From assembly GCA_030536995.1 (NCBI GenBank), contig JAUNOY010000023.1, positions 1-44,794 of the forward strand: 44,794 nucleotides of DNA, given 5' to 3'. Every line of letters begins with the position of its first letter. Position 1 is the stretch's first letter. Source of the DNA: Eubacteriales bacterium. Its GTDB lineage: Bacteria; Bacillota; Clostridia; Lachnospirales; Lachnospiraceae. Below, piece by piece: positions 26,242-36,403 of the stretch. Made by a program: the position numbers and the translations under genes. The notes beneath the pieces were generated by a model, which worked only from the letters and a program-made list of their open reading frames with translations, had not been told where the DNA came from and searched no databases.

Positions 26242-27078
26242 ATGTTATATATAGGAAATCATACTACTTCCTCCAAAGGTTACGCAGCTATGGCGCGGCA
26301 GATGATTAAAAATGGAGGAAATACTTTTGCTTTCTTTACCAGAAATCCAAGAGGAGGAAAGGCGAAGAATATTGACGAAAAAGATGTGGCGAAATTTCTG
26401 GAGCTGAGTAAGGAGAATGAGTTTGAAAAAATCGTGGCTCATGCGCCTTATACAATGAACTGTGCTGCTGCCCGGGAAGATTTAAGAGAGTTTGCCAGAG
26501 AAACAATGAAAGACGACCTGAAACGAATGGAATATACACCCGGCAATTATTATAATTTTCATCCTGGAAGCCATGTAGGTCAGGGAAGCGAAGCAGGCAT
26601 TGCCAAAATTGCAGAGATTTTAAATGATGTTCTCACAGAAGAGCAGAGTACAACCGTTCTTCTGGAAACAATGGCTGGTAAAGGCAGTGAAGTTGGCAGA
26701 AGCTTTCAGGAAATCCGGGCAATCATTGATCTGGTTGACAGGAAGGACAAGCTGGGCGTATGTCTGGATACCTGCCATGTGTGGGACGGCGGTTATGATA
26801 TTGTCGGAAATCTGGATGGGGTTTTGAAAGAATTCGATGAAGTAATCGGACTTGGCAGGCTGAAGGCGGTGCATTTAAACGACAGTATGAACGGGCTTGG
26901 AAGCCACAAGGACCGTCATGCCCCTATTGGTGAAGGCTGTATCGGACTGGAGGCGCTTGTACGCGTAATCAGTCATCCTGCGCTGAAGGGAATTCCGTTT
27001 ATTCTGGAAACCCCTAATGACGACGAAGGCTGGACAAAAGAAATTGCCCTTTTACGGGAAAGATATCAGGAGGTATAG
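26242..27078 (+). CDS. nfo: Endonuclease IV (AP endonuclease)
   Basis: A 278-aa TIM-barrel enzyme that cleaves at abasic sites in base-excision repair, with three metal ions. Metal-ligand motifs are visible in order: [52 protein letters not shown] and ILETP. The length is typical. The ribosome site is AGGAGATGAG. The next gene starts 2 nt after its stop, so the two are translationally coupled. Confidence 0.96.
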
Positions 27079-27080
27079 AA

Positions 27081-27629
27081 ATGAAAACTCTGATTTTCAG
27101 CGGTTCTCCGAGAAAAAACGGGGAAACAGCATTTATGATCGAGGAGCTGAAAAAAGCTATGGGAGGCGAATTTAAGGAGGTAAATGCCTACCGCGCAGAT
27201 ATCCGTCCCTGTATAGACTGCCGTTGGTGCTTTGAGCATGAGGGATGTGCCATAAAAGATGAAATGCAGGAAGTGTATGATTACATTCAGGAATGCGACC
27301 ATATTGTTATTGCATCTCCGGTGTATTTTGAGGAGATTACGGGAACTTTGCTTGCTATGTTCAGCAGACTTCAGACGTATTTCAGCGCCAGATATATCCG
27401 TAAGGAAGAACCGGTTCCGAAGAAAAAGACAGGCGCTATTCTTCTTGCGGCAGGAAGCATCGGACCAAGGGAAAAAGCGGAGAGTACCAGTGAGATGCTT
27501 CTTCGCCAATTAAGCTGCCAGAGTCTTGGGACTGTTTATGCGGCGAAAACAGATAAAGTTTCTGTCAGGGACAGAGAGGATATCCGCAGGGAACTTGCCG
27601 CTCTGGGACAGGAGCTTGCAAAAAACTGA
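27081..27629 (+). CDS. Iron-sulfur flavoprotein / NADPH-dependent FMN reductase family
   Basis: A 182-aa flavodoxin-like protein. The FMN phosphate loop is SGSPRKNGETAFM. A compact cysteine motif C44-x2-C47-x2-C50-x5-C56 (CIDCRWCFEHEGC) matches the 4Fe-4S pattern of Isf proteins, which pass electrons in anaerobes. SPVYFEEITG is the second flavin-binding stretch. It follows nfo by 2 nt. A role in oxidative-stress defence alongside nfo is plausible but inferred. Confidence 0.9.
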   Translation: MKTLIFSGSPRKNGETAFMIEELKKAMGGEFKEVNAYRADIRPCIDCRWCFEHEGCAIKDEMQEVYDYIQECDHIVIASPVYFEEITGTLLAMFSRLQTYFSARYIRKEEPVPKKKTGAILLAAGSIGPREKAESTSEMLLRQLSCQSLGTVYAAKTDKVSVRDREDIRRELAALGQELAKN

Positions 27630-27672: not shown

Positions 27673-28350
27673 ATGAAGAAACTGAAACTTTTTTTGACTG
27701 CGTGTCTCTTATTGTTTGTGCTTGCCTTTACCGGCTGCCAGAGCAAGGATGAAGCGTCACTTGAAAATAAAGAGGTATTTGAGGAAGAATTATCGCCTGT
27801 TTCAGATGAGGAGATGGCGAAGCTGGAGGCGGCTGATGTCTCTGATGAAGAGATGACAATGCTTGATGAAGAAGAGCTGGGAAAACTGGAGGGTACTTCT
27901 GAAGAAAATGCCGAAACGTCCGAAGAAACACAGAATAAGGAAGAGGATGATAAGGAAGAAGCGGATAAAGAGGATTCCAACAGCCAGCAGAATACAGGCG
28001 CCATAAAGGTAGAGGAGGACGGTTCCTATACCTCCAAGGATGAAGTCGCCGTTTACATCCATACCTATGGCAAACTGCCGTCCAACTACATTACCAAAAA
28101 AGAAGCGAAAGCTCTTGGCTGGGTGAGTAAGGAAGGAAATCTTGATGAAGTGGCTCCGGGCAAAAGTATTGGAGGAGATAAATTCGGAAATTACGAGGGA
28201 ATGCTTCCCAAAGAGGGCGGCCGCCAGTATTACGAATGTGACATTGACTTTGACGGAACCTACAGAAATGAAAAACGTATCATCTATTCTGATGACGGTC
28301 TTATTTTTTATACAGAAGATCACTACAAGACATTTGAACAGTTATATTAA
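27673..28350 (+). CDS. Lipoprotein with C-terminal barnase-type ribonuclease domain
   Basis: A 225-aa protein. A lipoprotein signal (MKKLKLFLT, hydrophobic core, lipobox FTGC) anchors it at Cys22. Residues 23-110 form a strongly acidic linker with two imperfect repeats of VSDEEMxxL. Residues about 118-225 are a full-length barnase-family RNase domain: LPSNYITKKEAKALGW, APGKSIGGD, then the catalytic residues equivalent to barnase Glu73 (E188), Arg83 and Arg87 (R198, R202) and His102 (H217 in DHYKTF). All are present, so it should be an active guanyl-preferring endoribonuclease. It is the third gene of the nfo transcript (43-nt gap, AAAGGAG site). Barstar is encoded 1.2 kb away at 29565. Confidence 0.92.
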   Translation: MKKLKLFLTACLLLFVLAFTGCQSKDEASLENKEVFEEELSPVSDEEMAKLEAADVSDEEMTMLDEEELGKLEGTSEENAETSEETQNKEEDDKEEADKEDSNSQQNTGAIKVEEDGSYTSKDEVAVYIHTYGKLPSNYITKKEAKALGWVSKEGNLDEVAPGKSIGGDKFGNYEGMLPKEGGRQYYECDIDFDGTYRNEKRIIYSDDGLIFYTEDHYKTFEQLY

Positions 28351-28361
28351 ATAGTATATAT

Positions 28362-28398
28362 AAAAAACCAGTCCTGCATGAAGCGGGGCTGGTTTTTT
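28362..28398. terminator. Terminator after the barnase lipoprotein gene
   Basis: AAAAAACCAG and CTGGTTTTTT form the outer stem of an imperfect hairpin, with short T-runs on both strands. It serves the plus-strand operon and probably the converging dehydrogenase gene. Confidence 0.82.
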
Positions 28399-28466
28399 AT
28401 GTGTGCGTTTTGCGGCATTCATTCGCAGCAAGAACGCTGGAGCGCCTTGAATTCACATATATTACT

Positions 28467-29456
28467 CTAAGCGGAAACTTCGTTTGTTAATGCTTCTCCG
28501 TTCATAAATGCTTTTGCATTATCAAGGGTTGTCTCTGCAATATTTGTCAGCGCCTCTTCTGTGAGGAATCCCTGATGAGATGTCAGCATGACATTCGGGA
28601 AAGAGAGAAGCCGCTGTACAGTAGAGGTCTGTAAAATCTCTTCGGACATATCCTCGTATACGAGCTGCGTTTCCTCTTCGTATACATCAAGTCCCACTGC
28701 AAAGAACTTGTGATCGCGGATTCCTGCGATAAGGTCCTGTGTATTGATCAGACCGCCTCTGGAGGTATTTACCAGAATAACGCCGTCTTTCATTTTTGCA
28801 ATGGACTCTGCATTTATGATGTGCTGAGTTTCAGGAGACAGCGGGCAGTGGAGGCTGATCAGGTCGCTTTGAGCCAGAAGCTCGTCAAGGGAGACATACT
28901 CCAGGAAATCAAGGCTCTTATTTGGGAAAAGGTCGTAAGCGATAACCTTCATGCCGAAACCTTTACAGATACGAGCCATAGCCTGACCGATTTTTCCGGT
29001 TCCGATGATTCCGGCTGTTTTTCCGTAAAAATTAACGCCCATGAGTCCGCTTAAGGCGAAATTATTTTCGCGGCATTTAATGTATGCCTTGTGGGTGTGA
29101 CGATTGGCTGTAAGAGCAAGCGCCATAGCATGTTCTGCAACTGCCTCAGGAGAATAGCCCGGAACACGGAGAATGCGGATTCCATATTCTTTGGCAACAG
29201 GCAAATCAATGTTGTTATAGCCTGCGCAGCGCATAAGGATTAATTTGACGTCCTGTCTGTGAAGCTCAGTGAGGACAGGGGCGCTTAAATCAGAGTTTAC
29301 AAAGGCGCAGATGGCCTCATATCCTCTGGCGAGAGGCGCGGTCTCCTCCTGGAGGTTAGCGTCAGTAAATTTCATTTCAATTCCCGGATAAGAGGGAAGA
29401 AGGTTTTCAAAGAATCTGCGGTCGTAATTTTTGGTACCATAAAATAGAATTTTCAT
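28467..29456 (-). CDS. D-2-hydroxyacid dehydrogenase, D-lactate dehydrogenase-like
   Basis: A 329-aa NAD-dependent enzyme of the D-isomer 2-hydroxyacid dehydrogenase family. Two-part catalytic domain: MRCAGYNNIDL and VPGYSPEAVAEHAMAL on the substrate side, then NAD-binding GTGKIG (152-157). The catalytic Arg is in VNTSRGGLI, Glu is in the DVYEEE region and His is in LTSHQGFLT. It is close to LdhA and so probably reduces pyruvate to D-lactate, a fermentation sink. It lies on the reverse strand between the barnase and barstar genes. The ribosome site is GAGAGGAG. Confidence 0.9.
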   Translation of the reverse strand: MKILFYGTKNYDRRFFENLLPSYPGIEMKFTDANLQEETAPLARGYEAICAFVNSDLSAPVLTELHRQDVKLILMRCAGYNNIDLPVAKEYGIRILRVPGYSPEAVAEHAMALALTANRHTHKAYIKCRENNFALSGLMGVNFYGKTAGIIGTGKIGQAMARICKGFGMKVIAYDLFPNKSLDFLEYVSLDELLAQSDLISLHCPLSPETQHIINAESIAKMKDGVILVNTSRGGLINTQDLIAGIRDHKFFAVGLDVYEEETQLVYEDMSEEILQTSTVQRLLSFPNVMLTSHQGFLTEEALTNIAETTLDNAKAFMNGEALTNEVSA

Positions 29457-29512
29457 AAATTCATGCTCCTCTCTGGAAATATAAAATTTGATATGTTATA
29501 CTAACATAAAAA

Positions 29513-29530
29513 TTGTATTTGTGTAAATAC
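29513..29530. promoter_or_regulatory. Palindrome between the dehydrogenase and barstar genes
   Basis: GTATTT-gtgt-AAATAC (29515-29530), preceded by TT, in the divergent intergenic region. The TTGT...ACA(T) outer spacing resembles redox-regulator operators such as Rex sites, but the match is loose. Confidence 0.35.
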
Positions 29531-29564
29531 ATTATATATAAGTTTTTGCAAAGGAGGAAGAATT

Positions 29565-29837
29565 ATGCAGGAAGTAACAATAAAAGTCAGTGAATTTGAT
29601 ACTGTGGAAGAAATACATGAATATCTTGCAGAAGAGCTGGAATTTCCCGCATATTATGGTAAAAATCTGTCCGCTCTTTACGATGTGCTGACAGATCTAA
29701 GTGAGGATGTAAGAATCATTATGGATTTATCCGGTACAGCGGATGAAGAGCTTCTTGAAGAGGCAGAAAAGATGGTGGAAGTAATGGAAGATGCTTCTGA
29801 AGAGAATGAATATCTGGAAATAGAATGTGAAGAATAA
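29565..29837 (+). CDS. Barstar-family ribonuclease inhibitor
   Basis: A 90-aa acidic protein. The barstar motif is clear: LEFPAYYGKNLSALYDVLTD (about 25-44). Aligned with barstar, Tyr29/Tyr30, Gly31, Asn33, Leu34 and Asp39 are kept (Y30, Y31, G32, N34, L35, D40). Asp35 becomes Ser36 and Trp38 becomes Tyr39. The acidic fourth helix region (EEAEKMVEVMEDASEE) is also there. It should be cytoplasmic, with no signal peptide. The ribosome site AAAGGAGG is 8 nt before the ATG. It ends at its own terminator. It is the likely immunity partner of the barnase lipoprotein; expression is separate from it. Confidence 0.88.
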   Translation: MQEVTIKVSEFDTVEEIHEYLAEELEFPAYYGKNLSALYDVLTDLSEDVRIIMDLSGTADEELLEEAEKMVEVMEDASEENEYLEIECEE

Positions 29838-29952: not shown

Positions 29953-31230
29953 TCAGGAACAGGACAGGGAATACAGGTCTTCGTAGAAGGCTGGATAAGA
30001 AATGTTAACGCATTCTCCTCCCCGAATCTCCATATCTCCTTCGCAAATAGTACCGGCGACTGCGAATGCCATAGCGATACGATGGTCAAGATGGGAGTCT
30101 ATTTCTGCTCCGTGAAGCGCTTTTCCTCCATGAATAATCATTCCGTCCTCTGTAGCCTCAATATCAGCACCCATTCGCCTGAGGTTTTCCACGACAGTCT
30201 CAATGCGGTTGGATTCCTTTACTTTTAATTCTGCCGCATCTTTGATGATGGTAGTGCCTTCTGCGAAAGCAGCCATAACAGCAATCATAGGAATTTCATC
30301 AATCAGTGTGGGAATAATTTCGCCGCCTACCGTTGTTCCGTGAAGACCTGCAGAGCGGATGAGAAGGTCTGCGGTAGGTTCGCCGTCTCTGTTTTCGTTC
30401 AGCAGTTCAGTGTCTGCACCCATAGCCTTGCATACCCGGAGGAAGCCGTCTCTGGTAGGGTTGATGCCCACATTTTTGAGAAGAATCTCACTGTTTGGGG
30501 TGAGAAGCCCTGCTGCGATGAAATATGCTGCAGAGGAAATATCTCCGGGTACATGGATTTCGCGACAGATAAGATCCGGTTCCGGTGAAATGGAGGCAGT
30601 AGTACCCTCAGAGGTAATGTCTGCGCCGAAATATTTTAACATAATCTCCGTATGGTTTCTGGAAAGTACAGGCTCAGTTACGCTGGTGATGTCGTCGGCG
30701 TATAATCCGGCGAGGAGTACACAGGATTTTACCTGAGCGGAGGCAACAGGAGACTGATAGTGAATGGCATGGAGATTTTTGCCTTCAATGCGAAGGGGAA
30801 CACAGCCGTTGTCTCTGAGGCTTCTGATATCTGCTCCCATAGAGAGAAGAGGGGTCATAATCCGCTTCATGGGACGGGATTGAATAGAGGCATCGCCGTT
30901 TAACTCCGATACAAAGGACTGACCTGCAAGGATGCCGGAAATCAGCCGTGTGGTGGTGCCGCTGTTTCCCACGTCAAGGATTTCTGACGGAGTGCAAAGC
31001 CCATGCAGACCTTTTCCGTGTACGAGAACTTCTGTGTTGTTTCGCTCTATTGTGATTCCCATTTTCCGGAAGCAGGAGATGGTGGAAAGGCAGTCGGCGC
31101 CTTCCAGAAAGCCTGTTATTTTTGTTGTGCCTTTCGCCAGTGAACCGAACATAACGGCTCTGTGGGAGATGGATTTATCTCCGGGTACAGTAAGGGTGCC
31201 TCGTAAGCGAGTCTGTTTTTTGATTTTCAT
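29953..31230 (-). CDS. aroA: 3-phosphoshikimate 1-carboxyvinyltransferase (EPSP synthase)
   Basis: A 425-aa shikimate-pathway enzyme. GDKSISHRAVM, GNSGTTTRL, SIQSRPMKRIMTPL, ASAQVKSCVLLAG and the C-terminal DHRIAMAFAVAG are conserved. The short motifs GDKS, SAQVK and RNHTE are those used to define the class II (glyphosate-tolerant) EPSP synthases. It follows tyrA by 8 nt on the same strand, so the two are an aromatic amino acid operon. The reading ends just before a 68-bp spacer to the barstar terminator. Confidence 0.95.
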   Translation of the reverse strand: MKIKKQTRLRGTLTVPGDKSISHRAVMFGSLAKGTTKITGFLEGADCLSTISCFRKMGITIERNNTEVLVHGKGLHGLCTPSEILDVGNSGTTTRLISGILAGQSFVSELNGDASIQSRPMKRIMTPLLSMGADIRSLRDNGCVPLRIEGKNLHAIHYQSPVASAQVKSCVLLAGLYADDITSVTEPVLSRNHTEIMLKYFGADITSEGTTASISPEPDLICREIHVPGDISSAAYFIAAGLLTPNSEILLKNVGINPTRDGFLRVCKAMGADTELLNENRDGEPTADLLIRSAGLHGTTVGGEIIPTLIDEIPMIAVMAAFAEGTTIIKDAAELKVKESNRIETVVENLRRMGADIEATEDGMIIHGGKALHGAEIDSHLDHRIAMAFAVAGTICEGDMEIRGGECVNISYPAFYEDLYSLSCS

Positions 31231-31238
31231 GTCAATAC

Positions 31239-32330
31239 CTACCGTTCATATATAATGTAATTTCTTTTTTGGAGAAGCGCCATGCCTTTGTGCAGGGAAT
31301 CCTCGTCATAGAATTCAATTTTTAAAACGCCCTGTTCAAATTCCCGATTGTGAATGATTCCTATATTTTTGATACTGATTTGTTCCATTGCAAGGATGGT
31401 GGCGATGGCTGCAATGCCGCCTGCTTCATCTGCAATATCCAGATAAAGGATGTGGGCTTTTCTCAGGAGACCATTATCTGTAATATCAATGGAGTCCCGG
31501 TAATCCTTTGCGCCTGCAAACATTTGGTAAAGACTTTCGGCGTCTTTGTTATCGACAAAACAACGAATCTGAATGAGAAGACGGATGTAGTCATCCAGTA
31601 CATTGGAGATGTTTTCATTATTTTCCACGCAAATCTGTTCCCACATAACAGGAGAAGAAGAAGCGATGCGGGTAATATCTCTAAAGCCTCCTGCAGCGAT
31701 GGTTTTCATATATTCAAGGTCATTGTCCAGCATGCTTACCAGATTTACAAGGGCAGAGGCAAGGATATGGGGCAGATGGCTTACTCCTGCAGTGATGAAA
31801 TCGTGTTCTTCACTGGTGAGTACCATTGGAATAGCGCCGAGGGAGGAAATAAGATCTGTGAAGTCTGTAAGCCTGTCCAGAGCAACTTCGCCTCCCGGGG
31901 TGATAATGTAATATGCATTTTCAATCAGACGGTCGCTGGCAGAAGAAAATCCGGTTTTTTCGGAACCTGCCATGGGATGTCCGCCTATGAAGCAGTGCTC
32001 CATGCCAAGTTCTGACACTGCGTTGTGGATGCTTCCCTTTACACTCCCTACATCTGTGATAATTGTAGAAGGTCCTATCACTGATTTCAGGTATTTCAGG
32101 TAGGAAATGTTAAATTCTACAGGGGCACACAGAAAGATGTAATCGCAGGTGCCGAAACGGGTGTCGTTTTCTTCGCAGACTGCGTCGATGATTTTGCCGC
32201 CAAGAGCAGATGCGAGAGTTTCACGGTCGGGATCATATGCCAGAATGTGATAATCCTTGTGATTTCTGCGAATGGTTTTGGCGATAGAGCCGCCAATCAG
32301 TCCCAGACCGATAAAGCCGATGGTTTTCAT
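31239..32330 (-). CDS. tyrA: Prephenate dehydrogenase with ACT domain
   Basis: A 363-aa enzyme converting prephenate to 4-hydroxyphenylpyruvate for tyrosine synthesis. The NAD-binding motif GLGLIGGS is at 8-15. GGHPMAGSEKTGF is the conserved substrate site. A C-terminal ACT domain (about 290-363, ILYLDIADEAGGIAAIA) suggests tyrosine feedback, as in B. subtilis TyrA. It is the first gene of tyrA-aroA. A long structured leader lies between its promoter and start. Confidence 0.94.
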   Translation of the reverse strand: MKTIGFIGLGLIGGSIAKTIRRNHKDYHILAYDPDRETLASALGGKIIDAVCEENDTRFGTCDYIFLCAPVEFNISYLKYLKSVIGPSTIITDVGSVKGSIHNAVSELGMEHCFIGGHPMAGSEKTGFSSASDRLIENAYYIITPGGEVALDRLTDFTDLISSLGAIPMVLTSEEHDFITAGVSHLPHILASALVNLVSMLDNDLEYMKTIAAGGFRDITRIASSSPVMWEQICVENNENISNVLDDYIRLLIQIRCFVDNKDAESLYQMFAGAKDYRDSIDITDNGLLRKAHILYLDIADEAGGIAAIATILAMEQISIKNIGIIHNREFEQGVLKIEFYDEDSLHKGMALLQKRNYIIYER

Positions 32331-32641: not shown

Positions 32642-33652
32642 TTATCTTTTTTCGGTAATAAATGAAAAACCGTATTTTTGAAGAGCCTGTTGTGCCTGTT
32701 CTTCGTTTAACCCGGTTATACCGGGGATGTTTCCTCCTGCTCCGGCAGAAATTCCCATATTCAAAATAATAACCATTGAGAAAATCAGGAGTGCAAAAAA
32801 GATGCTTTTGGTTGTGCTTTTTTTACGTTTTATCATAACTTTTATCCTTTCTTCTGTTGGGTATTTGCAGAAAGAACTGCAAAAAAACTTGGGTTTTGTA
32901 TTTCTTTCTTCCAAATCAAGCAGGGTAAGTAAATAGGATTTTCTGTATTCGGAAGAGTGATGTTTTAATACAGCTTCGTCACAGGATAATTCCATATCCC
33001 GGTTTGCAAAAAGATACATAACCCATATCAGAGGATTGTACCAGTATAGGGAACAGAGCAAAACCAGAATCCATTTCAGCAGGATATCGAAACATTTTAT
33101 ATGTATAAATTCATGCTCTAATATAGCCTCCAGACGTTCTTCCGGCATCTTTTTATGCGTTGGAAGGAGAATGACCGGCTTTATAATCCCGTAAGTCAGG
33201 GGAATCCGGATTCTGTCTGATTTACGGATTTCTATTTTCCTTCTTAAACAATGTGCTCTTTTCCATTGTTCAAAAAATTCTCCATCAACAGGCAGCGCCA
33301 TTTTGTATGTCCTTGTGTTTAACCAGTGTGAACCAATGAAAACACCGGCAATTAAAAGTCCGCAGACCAGCCAGATGATTTTGAGGAGATTTCCGGAAGA
33401 GGAGGGAACGATATTCCGGCAGGACTGCTGTATCTGGCTCTGTAATTGCAGGAATTCAGAGGCGTTTTTGCTTATAATTGTGTTTTTGAGCGGGATTTCG
33501 AAAGCAAAAGGACACAATAGCCCGAAAATCAGGATTTTCCACAGAAACAGCCATGTTCTTCCTGAAACATGATATAGAAACAGTTTTCTGGTTAAGAGGA
33601 TACAGGGAACAACAAGGGTGATCGTCAGATTCATCAGCAGAATTTTTTCCAT
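32642..33652 (-). CDS. M56 family metallopeptidase, BlaR1-like sensor, no penicillin-binding domain
   Basis: A 336-aa membrane protein. Four hydrophobic segments (about 5-22, 33-50, 90-107 and 283-300) surround a zinc metallopeptidase domain with HEFIH (H180, E181, H184) and ELSCDEAVL. In BlaR1/MecR1 this protease inactivates the BlaI repressor after signal detection. Here the ~250-aa extracellular penicillin-binding sensor is missing. Only ~36 residues follow the last helix, and these (IPGITGLNEEQAQQALQKYG) resemble half a PASTA repeat. It starts 10 nt after blaI, with the AGGAGG overlapping the blaI stop. The signal is probably cell-wall related (inference). Confidence 0.9.
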   Translation of the reverse strand: MEKILLMNLTITLVVPCILLTRKLFLYHVSGRTWLFLWKILIFGLLCPFAFEIPLKNTIISKNASEFLQLQSQIQQSCRNIVPSSSGNLLKIIWLVCGLLIAGVFIGSHWLNTRTYKMALPVDGEFFEQWKRAHCLRRKIEIRKSDRIRIPLTYGIIKPVILLPTHKKMPEERLEAILEHEFIHIKCFDILLKWILVLLCSLYWYNPLIWVMYLFANRDMELSCDEAVLKHHSSEYRKSYLLTLLDLEERNTKPKFFCSSFCKYPTEERIKVMIKRKKSTTKSIFFALLIFSMVIILNMGISAGAGGNIPGITGLNEEQAQQALQKYGFSFITEKR

Positions 33653-34312: not shown

Positions 34313-36403
34313 ATGGACGTTTTTAGAACTGACCGAATCAGAAATGTAGTCCTGTTAGGTCATGGTGGAGCTGGCAAGACTACTTTGGCGGAGGCAATGG
34401 CATACTTATCAGGTATGACAAGTCGTCTCGGCAGAGTAGAGGACGGAAATACAGTCAGCGACTATGACAAAGAAGAAATTAAGAGACATTTTTCCATCTC
34501 AACAACATTGATTCCTGTACCTTGGGATAAGGTTAAGATCAATGTACTGGACACTCCCGGATATTTCGACTTTGTTGGTGAAGTAGAAGAGGCTGTAAGC
34601 GCAGCAGACGCAGCTATTATCGTAGTTTCCGGTAAGGCTGGTGTTCAGGTTGGTACACAGAAAGCATGGGATTTATGTGAGAAATATAAACTTCCGAGAA
34701 TGATTTTCGTTACAGATATGGACGTTGATGATGTCAGCTATCGTAAAGTTGTAGAAGAACTTACAGAGCTTTATGGCAAAAAAATCGCTCCATTACATTT
34801 CCCGATCCGTGAAGACGGTAAATTCGTAGGATATGTAAACGTAGTGAAACAGGCCGGAAGAAAATATATCGACAAAGGTAAAAAAGAAGAATGCGAAATT
34901 CCGGCATATCTGGATGAATATCTGGAGAAATACCATGAGATTCTTATGGAATCTGTGGCAGAGACAAGTGAAGAATTTATGGATCGTTACTTTGAGGGAG
35001 ATACTTTCTCCGTGACAGAAGTTTCTGCAGCTCTTGCAATGAACGTGCAGGAAGCTTCCATTGTTCCGGTATGTATGGGTTCTCCTGTAAATCTTCGCGG
35101 CGTATCCAACCTGCTTGACGATATCTGCGGATATTTCCCAAGCCCGGATAAACGCTCCTGCAATGGTATCGCGCAGAAGACAAACAGTATCTTTGAAGCA
35201 AATTACGACTTCGCTAAAGCGAAATCCGCATATGTATGGAAAACAATTGCAGATCCGTTCCTTGGCAAATATTCTCTTATTAAAGTATGCTCCGGTGTTA
35301 TCAAAGGCGACGACACACTTCTTAATGTAGAGAAGGGCGAGGAAGAACGTCTGAATAAGCTGTATGTGCTGGAAGGCTCCAAGCCAATCGAGGTTTCCGA
35401 GCTTCACGCAGGTGACATCGGCGCTATTGCGAAGCTTAACAGCGTACAGACCGGAGACAGCCTTGCAACCAAGGCAAATCCAATCGTATATCCGAAGGCT
35501 GTCCTTTCCACACCTTATACCTGCAAACGCTTCAAAGCAGTGAAGAAGGGCGACGAGGATAAGATTTCTCAGGCGCTTGCGAAGATGATGAGTGAAGATA
35601 AGACACTCCTTTCCGTAAACGACAGTGCGAACCGTCAGACTCTCCTTTATGGAATCGGCGACCAGCATCTTGATATTGTTGTGAATAAATTAAAAGAACG
35701 CTATAAAGTAGACATTGAACTGAGTAAACCGAAGGTTGCTTTCCGTGAGACAATCCGCAAGAAATCTGATGTGGAAGGCAAACATAAGAAACAGTCCGGC
35801 GGACATGGTCAGTACGGTCACGTTAAGATGCGTTTCGAGCCGTCCGGCGATCTGGAAACACCATATGTATTTGAGCAGGAAGTTGTGGGCGGAGCTGTTC
35901 CGAAGAACTACTTCCCGGCAGTTGAAAAAGGTATGCAGGAATGCGTACTGAAAGGACCTGTTGCAGCATATCCTGTAGTTGGTGTGAAGGCAGTTCTTTA
36001 CGATGGTTCCTACCATCCGGTTGACTCTTCAGAAATGGCATTCAAGATGGCTACAATCCTTGCGTTTAAGAAAGGTTTCATGGAGGCGTCTCCTGTACTT
36101 CTTGAGCCGATTGTTTCCATGAAAGTAACAGTTCCGGATAAATTTACCGGTGACGTTATGGGTGATCTGAATAAACGTCGTGGTCGTGTGCTCGGTATGA
36201 ATCCTGATCATGCAGGAAACACTGTAATTGAAGCAGACGTACCTCAGCTTGAGATTTACGGATATTCTACAGACCTTCGTTCCATGACAGGCGGAAGCGG
36301 AGATTTCTCCTATGAATTCGCACGTTATGAGCAGGCTCCGAGCGATATTCAGGCGAAAGAGATTGAAGCAAGAGCAAGTAAGCTTGACAGTGCAGACGAA
36401 TAA
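34313..36403 (+). CDS. EF-G-like translational GTPase (FusA2 type)
   Basis: A 696-aa protein with all five EF-G domains in length and order. It differs from canonical EF-G: P-loop GHGGAGKT (16-23); switch II is DTPGYFDF with Tyr84 where the catalytic His normally is; G4 reads TDMD (134-137) instead of NKxD. Domain IV has GHGQYGHVKM and the DVMGDLNKRRGRVLG motif. This fits the EF-G-like/FusA2 paralogues of Clostridia, whose function is uncertain (ribosome rescue, recycling or stress). It is not the main fusA of the str operon, as no rpsL, rpsG or tufA is near. It has its own promoter and terminator. Confidence 0.9.
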   Translation: MDVFRTDRIRNVVLLGHGGAGKTTLAEAMAYLSGMTSRLGRVEDGNTVSDYDKEEIKRHFSISTTLIPVPWDKVKINVLDTPGYFDFVGEVEEAVSAADAAIIVVSGKAGVQVGTQKAWDLCEKYKLPRMIFVTDMDVDDVSYRKVVEELTELYGKKIAPLHFPIREDGKFVGYVNVVKQAGRKYIDKGKKEECEIPAYLDEYLEKYHEILMESVAETSEEFMDRYFEGDTFSVTEVSAALAMNVQEASIVPVCMGSPVNLRGVSNLLDDICGYFPSPDKRSCNGIAQKTNSIFEANYDFAKAKSAYVWKTIADPFLGKYSLIKVCSGVIKGDDTLLNVEKGEEERLNKLYVLEGSKPIEVSELHAGDIGAIAKLNSVQTGDSLATKANPIVYPKAVLSTPYTCKRFKAVKKGDEDKISQALAKMMSEDKTLLSVNDSANRQTLLYGIGDQHLDIVVNKLKERYKVDIELSKPKVAFRETIRKKSDVEGKHKKQSGGHGQYGHVKMRFEPSGDLETPYVFEQEVVGGAVPKNYFPAVEKGMQECVLKGPVAAYPVVGVKAVLYDGSYHPVDSSEMAFKMATILAFKKGFMEASPVLLEPIVSMKVTVPDKFTGDVMGDLNKRRGRVLGMNPDHAGNTVIEADVPQLEIYGYSTDLRSMTGGSGDFSYEFARYEQAPSDIQAKEIEARASKLDSADE

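Follow-up and report, generated by a model that had tools for sequence, protein, structure and literature searches.

The 44,794-nt contig JAUNOY010000023.1 (assembly GCA_030536995.1; analyzed at its full length and called the window here), from a Lachnospiraceae genome, encodes a barnase-type ribonuclease (RNase) that is predicted to be a lipoprotein, together with a barstar inhibitor whose gene is split from that of the enzyme by a reverse-strand dehydrogenase gene. To our knowledge, the use to the bacterium of barnase and barstar, a textbook enzyme-inhibitor pair, is still uncertain. Comparison of sequences across the host genus (Blautia by its named members) brought out the tethered architecture, the split, a coupled loss of catalytic residues and inhibitor, and low ratios of nonsynonymous to synonymous substitution (dN/dS). 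The explanation that we favor, with a probability of roughly 0.7 as a whole, is that of a tethered RNase, cytosolic protection by barstar, a pair that is split yet coupled, and a second role of the lipoprotein that does not depend on RNase activity. Adjacent and split pairs, dead enzymes with decaying or no inhibitor, and stumps all occur within a single genus and largely in a single gene neighborhood, which amounts to a natural experiment; it ties retention of the inhibitor to the enzyme that the cell itself makes, not to defense against neighbors, and it draws attention to a pseudo-RNase lipoprotein with a function testable in cultured commensals. Both protein families and their pairing are already known, and simple pairs are described as widely distributed in the available part of PMC3482391; the tethered form, the split, and repeated coupled loss with a pseudo-RNase lipoprotein retained were not found in the open-licence literature searched, where none of the titles and abstracts listed dealt with barnase lipoproteins or with this locus and none of the papers listed on inactive toxins and the loss of immunity was relevant.

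The positions of the two open reading frames (ORFs) and the identities of their products, as proposed in a reading made from the window sequence without database searches (the sequence-only reading), were borne out. The RNase domain matched PF00545 over residues 124 to 224 (E = 1.3e-18; 67.8 bits against a curated cutoff of 24), and a barnase match in the PDB spanned residues 122 to 223 (E = 5.5e-36). Residue scoring recovered all of the catalytic residues (K27, E73, R83, R87, and H102), in agreement with the earlier claim of a tethered enzyme with a complete active site. In the AlphaFold2 model, the domain had predicted local distance difference test (pLDDT) values of 94 to 98 in 10-residue blocks, with one block at 88, and its four best Foldseek matches to barnase had template modeling (TM) scores of 0.97 to 0.98 on the target at 55 to 56% identity. 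The domain is thus predicted to be a guanyl-type RNase and to be active. Position 59, which is Arg in barnase, was Tyr in 107 and Arg in 18 of 142 relatives; because it is mostly Tyr, the guanine/barstar loop is unlike the Bacillus model in most of the 142 scored members.

The lipobox Cys of the protein was matched by a simple pattern rule for bacterial lipoproteins, and it was invariant in all 18 aligned stalk-type rows, with a Phe at position -3 (FTGC) that we take to be atypical of the lipobox consensus. Between the lipobox Cys and the domain lies an acidic linker, as had been read from the sequence (34 D/E and 8 K/R); it comprises 90 residues by count, not the 88 given before. The protein consists of signal and lipobox, disordered acidic stalk, and RNase domain only, and no trafficking, repeat, or pretoxin domain was found in it by the Pfam scan or in the AlphaFold2 model. 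Such a lipoprotein would be expected at the cell surface. The stalk motif (roughly F/Y-x-acidic-acidic-L/M-x-P-L-x-acidic3-L) was present in 26 of 27 stalks, with a close variant in that of G328, a count that is partly circular because the stalk profile was built with these sequences; against its own genome, the stalk matched only itself at E <= 1. A role of the stalk as an intramolecular inhibitor lying on the active site was considered and was not supported, the stalk having pLDDT values of about 46 to 68, at which its packing is unreadable. The tether, which the sequence-only reading had treated as distinctive, is present, but it is not unusual among relatives: 97 of 142 distinct fetched barnase domains had a lipobox, 39 had another signal or membrane segment, and 6 had neither, in a set drawn from 5'-complete ORFs that combines loci from the family, from the genus, and from among the best hits (the best 80 of 298 relatives), that is not a random sample, and in which the simple rule misses some lipoboxes (e.g., G336 and G329, placed under signal peptide/transmembrane segment).

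The barstar ORF matched PF01337 (E = 9.6e-19; 67.6 bits against a cutoff of 23.4). Among the residues that we take to form the barstar interface (Y29, D35, D39, and E76), Y29 and D39 are kept in the window, and D35 is replaced by Ser and E76 by Asp; W38 and W44 are replaced by Tyr and Leu. The D35S replacement was confined to the genus, where 13 pairs had it, some adjacent and some split, and it therefore is no marker of the split. Compensation between R59 of barnase and D35 of barstar was rejected as a candidate: the window combines Tyr59 with Ser35, yet Tyr59 occurs with Asp35 in 93 of 124 distinct pairs, and there is no simple covariation.

As had been described, barstar lies about 1.2 kb from barnase behind a reverse-strand dehydrogenase gene (PF00389/PF02826). 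The gap from the barnase stop to the barstar start is 1214 nt and contains both the antisense dehydrogenase gene and a terminator-like hairpin, an arrangement that departs from a simple toxin-immunity pair, in which the immunity gene would directly follow the toxin gene on one strand and one transcript. The strong hairpin would end the barnase transcript, and because it does so and a reverse-strand gene intervenes, barstar would have to be transcribed on its own, presumably from a start in the divergent intergenic region (Table 1). Terminator-like sites in the region were not above chance in number (4 against 3.7 expected), and a promoter scan of the region gave no excess of promoter-like sites (11 against 7.5 by chance; standard deviation, 2.9). 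Judging from spacing, the AP-endonuclease-like, FMN-reductase-like, and barnase genes are probably cotranscribed. A genome-wide profile search of the window's own genome (2.83 Mb, 92% complete) found a single barnase and a single barstar; the pairing of this barstar with another barnase had been named earlier as evidence that would count against the pair, and no second barnase was found.

The genus sample comprised 64 genomes, many of them incomplete or fragmented. Barstar was adjacent to 12 of the 30 PF00545 matches in the genus, 338 to 3447 nt away from 8, elsewhere in the genome for 4, and absent for 6 (1 of the 30 PF00545 matches and 1 of the 26 barstar matches were below the Pfam cutoff). 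The usual gene order was queA, CapA-like, apurinic/apyrimidinic (AP) endonuclease, sometimes flavin mononucleotide (FMN) reductase, and barnase, followed by an optional major facilitator superfamily (MFS) transporter gene, an optional reverse-strand dehydrogenase gene, barstar, and reverse-strand aroA and prephenate dehydrogenase genes, from which single genomes deviate. Barnase and barstar were directly adjacent in 12 genomes. The dehydrogenase gene stood between them in six, including that of the window, and four of these six had one or two further genes encoding about 400 amino acids (aa), of which the one checked, in L197, encodes an MFS transporter; in two more genomes (G357 and G315), other genes lay between the pair. 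The barstar-aroA part and the barnase part were on different contigs with different neighbors in G326, G336, G353, and G324, and the dehydrogenase gene was in the barstar-aroA part of the first three. The pair is most simply regarded as having descended from an adjacent barnase-barstar gene pair.

Among the 39 genus genomes with a barnase or stalk gene, 22 had intact catalytic residues, 10 had a dead domain, and 7 had stumps (69 to 134 aa) that keep the lipobox and stalk motif and have no barnase domain. Each of the eight dead copies scored residue by residue had lost E73, H102, or both, and G307 and G314 were called dead by eye from an internal deletion common with G263 and G341. All 22 genomes with an intact enzyme had barstar, as against 2 of 10 with a dead one and 1 of 7 with a stump (Fisher test, P = 4.5e-8, ignoring relatedness). 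The YYG.N interface loop was kept in all 22 barstars beside intact enzymes, split or adjacent, and each of the 3 barstars that accompany a dead or absent domain has had it destroyed (GYKRS in G329, ESDGN in G348, and deleted in G312). This coupled loss is indirect evidence that barstar binds and inhibits its cognate barnase. Across the 42 genus genomes without an intact barnase, barstar was found in only 5, comprising these 3, a 54-aa fragment in G327 (no barnase), and 1 near-intact protein. In 24 dehydrogenase-aroA gaps where no barstar had been called, 328 fragments were compared, and none was a convincing barstar remnant (best E = 0.37). Across the 22 genomes with an intact enzyme, a mirror comparison of the two proteins gave a weak correlation (r = 0.46, from 231 nonindependent pairs).

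The barstar of Bacillus shields the cytosol of the producer from barnase. In the mechanism proposed here, a flexible acidic stalk would hold the guanyl-type RNase outside the cytoplasmic membrane, and barstar, having no signal peptide, would stay in the cytosol and neutralize any enzyme folded ahead of its export. Where the enzyme is intact, barstar is retained with its binding loop; in other species with this locus, the active site has been lost, barstar has decayed or disappeared, and the lipoprotein has been kept as a dead domain or as a stump with anchor and acidic motif. Protection from the cell's own surface RNase is our best reading of barstar, and it fits better than neighbor immunity, given how few genus genomes with a dead or absent enzyme of their own retain barstar (5 of 42, 1 of them near intact). 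The earlier suggestion of a protective role gains support from the same pattern, barstar being present in all intact genomes and gone or damaged in all 17 that have a dead domain or a stump.

Another role raised for the enzyme, as a surface RNA scavenger with the tether keeping a nutrient-acquiring RNase at the cell, is possible but tentative, and it is compatible with the favored explanation, which concerns barstar and the split, not the use of the enzyme. The secreted relatives balifase and binase are linked to phosphate starvation in the available part of PMC5021464, and the lipobox is widespread among the fetched barnases, whereas the neighboring genes (AP endonuclease, FMN reductase, and aroA) give no hint of nucleotide uptake. 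Scavenging would not be the sole role, because copies that have no activity, dead or stump, are retained.

These dead barnases and stumps could also be decaying pseudogenes, with the stalk motif merely a low-complexity acid-rich sequence, and the seven stumps without a domain, the same-flank genomes without both genes, and the weak profile matches given by other acidic lipoproteins are in keeping with that. The stump of G331, a 69-aa ORF near a contig end, additionally has a stop in the matched stretch. We consider decay unlikely, however, since the matched stretch of every other dead or stump copy listed is free of stops, and since profile A1, built from 18 barnase-bearing stalk lipoproteins without stumps and used to find the gene in further genomes, matched all seven stumps (E = 2.4e-8 to 6.5e-16) at the syntenic locus, where none of six weaker matches lay. 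Pairwise dN/dS values (Nei-Gojobori, own script) were 0.05 to 0.27 for dead domains (five pairs), 0.04 to 0.09 for intact domains (five pairs), and 0.14 to 0.26 for whole stump genes (four pairs), all of them rough values, with dS often above 1 and near saturation and a single clade supplying three of the five dead pairs. Judged by dN/dS, the dead domains are unlike pseudogenes.

Catalytic loss at this locus has occurred more than once among species. On a tree of flanking proteins from 57 genomes, those with a dead copy or a stump (16 in all) did not form one clade (log-likelihood loss of 154; p-AU = 0.0002, in a test run after the tree had been viewed), and the fewest changes were five in catalysis and five in barstar, on a tree that is poorly resolved, with 15 of its 54 inner branches open. 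Retention of the dead domain and the stump suggests a noncatalytic envelope role as its simplest account. The odds are about even that what Blautia conserves as a unit is the lipoprotein and not the RNase: a surface lipoprotein with an acidic motif specific to the lineage would once have carried an active barnase, and the enzyme would have been switched off repeatedly, by point changes or deletion, with barstar following, and the pseudo-RNase fold or motif stump would be kept under selection for a noncatalytic envelope function such as binding RNA, protein, or cell wall.

Separation of barnase and barstar is the exception in the host family. In 299 family genomes, excluding two of the window's genus, 72 barnases were found in 71 genomes, and barstar lay <=300 nt downstream on the same strand for 64 of them, at 314 nt for 1, and elsewhere in the genome for 3. 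Only 4 of the 72 had no barstar match, so that homologous barnases without barstar, which the sequence-only reading had set as evidence against itself, are not widespread; 3 of these 4 were not stand-alone lipoproteins. Rereading of residues in 70 of the 71 genomes (72 ORFs) found the full catalytic set in 66 ORFs, which are all of the stand-alone, unbroken ORFs scored. The other six ORFs were those of G082, G172, and the second copy of G234 (toxin-like, without the K27 region), a fragment in G112, and two pieces of a broken gene in G281; the remaining genome, G144, has an unscored tip fragment without a start, followed by barstar.

That the protein is a toxin, whether acting by contact or released, to which barstar would make sister cells immune, is improbable: barnase domains serve as toxin tips in polymorphic systems and simple barnase-barstar pairs are called an incipient toxin-immunity order in the available part of PMC3482391, and G082 and G172 look like such tips, but the window protein has none of the delivery domains sought, no intact-loop barstar is kept in the genus where the own barnase is dead (the near-intact one of G308 has no barnase), stand-alone barstar is scarce there, and no tip polymorphism was seen, the domains of intact copies having the low dN/dS given above.

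Several points weigh against the favored explanation. Position 35 of barstar, Asp in what we take to be a known binding hot spot, is Ser in the window, and matches to a barstar promoter were not above chance. G308 has a near-intact barstar (HYG.N loop) without a barnase, and G233, outside the genus and listed as 100% complete, has an intact stand-alone lipoprotein barnase and no recognizable barstar. When corrected for relatedness, an independent-pairs test of the coupling had two supported pairs (about one for, none against, and one tie) and almost no power, and the saturation of dS bears on the dN/dS values. Adjacent pairs within the stalk group (G337 and G318) leave the number and direction of dehydrogenase events undecided. 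Gene order was read around barnase, barstar, or aroA in 60 of the 64 genus genomes (G310, G316, G317, and G330 were not located), and contig ends cut several stretches (e.g., G320, G344, G349, and G358).

Table 1. Features of the barnase-barstar locus, with positions in the window
Feature	Position	Strand	Evidence or remark
AP-endonuclease-like gene	26242-27078	+	Pfam profile match; directly 5' of FMN-reductase-like gene
NADPH-dependent FMN-reductase-like gene	27081-27629	+	Pfam profile match; directly 5' of barnase gene
Barnase lipoprotein gene, 225 aa	27673..28350	+	ORF, PF00545, PDB match, catalytic residues, AlphaFold2, Foldseek
Signal peptide, lipobox ending at Cys22 (AFTGC)	27673..27738	+	Sequence
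Acidic stalk, predicted disordered (pLDDT blocks about 46-68)	27739..28035	+	Residue count, AlphaFold2
Stalk motif FEEELSPVSDEEMAKLE	27778..27828	+	Kept in active, dead, and stump relatives
Second, weaker motif copy DEEMTMLDEEELGKLE	27844..27891	+	Similarity by eye from alignment
Barnase domain; K27/E73/R83/R87/H102 equivalents present, Tyr in place of Arg at position 59	28036..28347	+	Profile, PDB, and residue scoring
Intrinsic-terminator-like hairpin	28351..28410	+	Adjoins barnase stop codon; -36.3 kcal/mol, z = -10.2
D-2-Hydroxyacid dehydrogenase gene, between barnase and barstar	28467..29456	-	PF00389/PF02826
Divergent dehydrogenase/barstar intergenic region	29457..29564	.	Presumed barstar transcription start
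Barstar gene, 90 aa, no signal peptide seen	29565..29837	+	PF01337, ORF
aroA (5-enolpyruvylshikimate-3-phosphate [EPSP] synthase) and prephenate dehydrogenase genes	29953..32330	-	Usual right flank of locus

The closest known relatives are barnase and binase (RNase N1/T1, PF00545) and barstar (PF01337) of Bacillus, with which the window proteins share fold and catalytic residues, at about 55% identity to barnase. Unlike the freely secreted Bacillus enzyme, that of the window is a predicted lipoprotein with an acidic stalk and Tyr59, and its barstar has S35, Y38, L44, and D76. In both cases the inhibitor has no signal peptide. The available part of PMC5021464 likewise describes, for barnase and binase, an inhibitor gene outside one operon, and it presents the one-operon arrangement, which these two do not have, as unique among the bacilli compared. 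The separate barstar gene, which had been read as distinctive, is therefore real as a split but less distinctive than claimed, separate genes being classical in bacilli. That operon, balifase-YrdF of Bacillus licheniformis (PMC5021464, in the part available), has the RNase gene followed by that of barstar, like most pairs outside the genus; the window pair differs in being divided by the reverse-strand gene and hairpin. Simple barnase-barstar pairs and the Tox-Barnase/Imm-Barstar polymorphic toxins belong to the same two protein families, as far as the available text of PMC3482391 describes them, but the window has no delivery domain, no adjacent immunity gene, and no polymorphism that could be seen. 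The same text describes APD1 and APD2, lineage-restricted post-lipobox N termini that anchor effectors, which likewise combine a conserved N terminus with a C-terminal domain that varies or is lost; unlike these, one syntenic gene loses its domain across species here, and no array of swapped domains was seen.

Some further observations concern relatives of the two proteins. Outside the genus, a 454-aa repeat-rich protein follows the barstar-less barnase of G233 (L317:844-3056) and could be an unrelated inhibitor. Barnase-type C termini without the K27 region are carried on long toxin-like proteins at L321:2240-3775 and L322:1058-2284, in two genomes of the family without a PF01337 match. Of 87 barstar matches outside the genus, 22 had no barnase nearby, and extra or orphan barstars may have other partners. 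Five contigs labeled Bacteroidales (L140, L158, L162, L170, and L195) carry barnase lipoproteins, four of them with a linker of 19 to 20 residues, that are 64 to 71% identical to that of the window in the best segment; these contigs may be misbinned or transferred. In genomes of the genus, L274:6138-6974 and L276:5876-6709 encode cyclophilin-type isomerase lipoproteins (checked by Pfam for L274 only) whose acidic stalks weakly resemble the barnase stalk (FADDTESLTDEDMEAV in L274). To the right of the locus, the window encodes a BlaR1-type M56 peptidase (32642-33652) and an elongation-factor-G-type protein (34313-36403), the latter of which stays beside prephenate dehydrogenase in many relatives.

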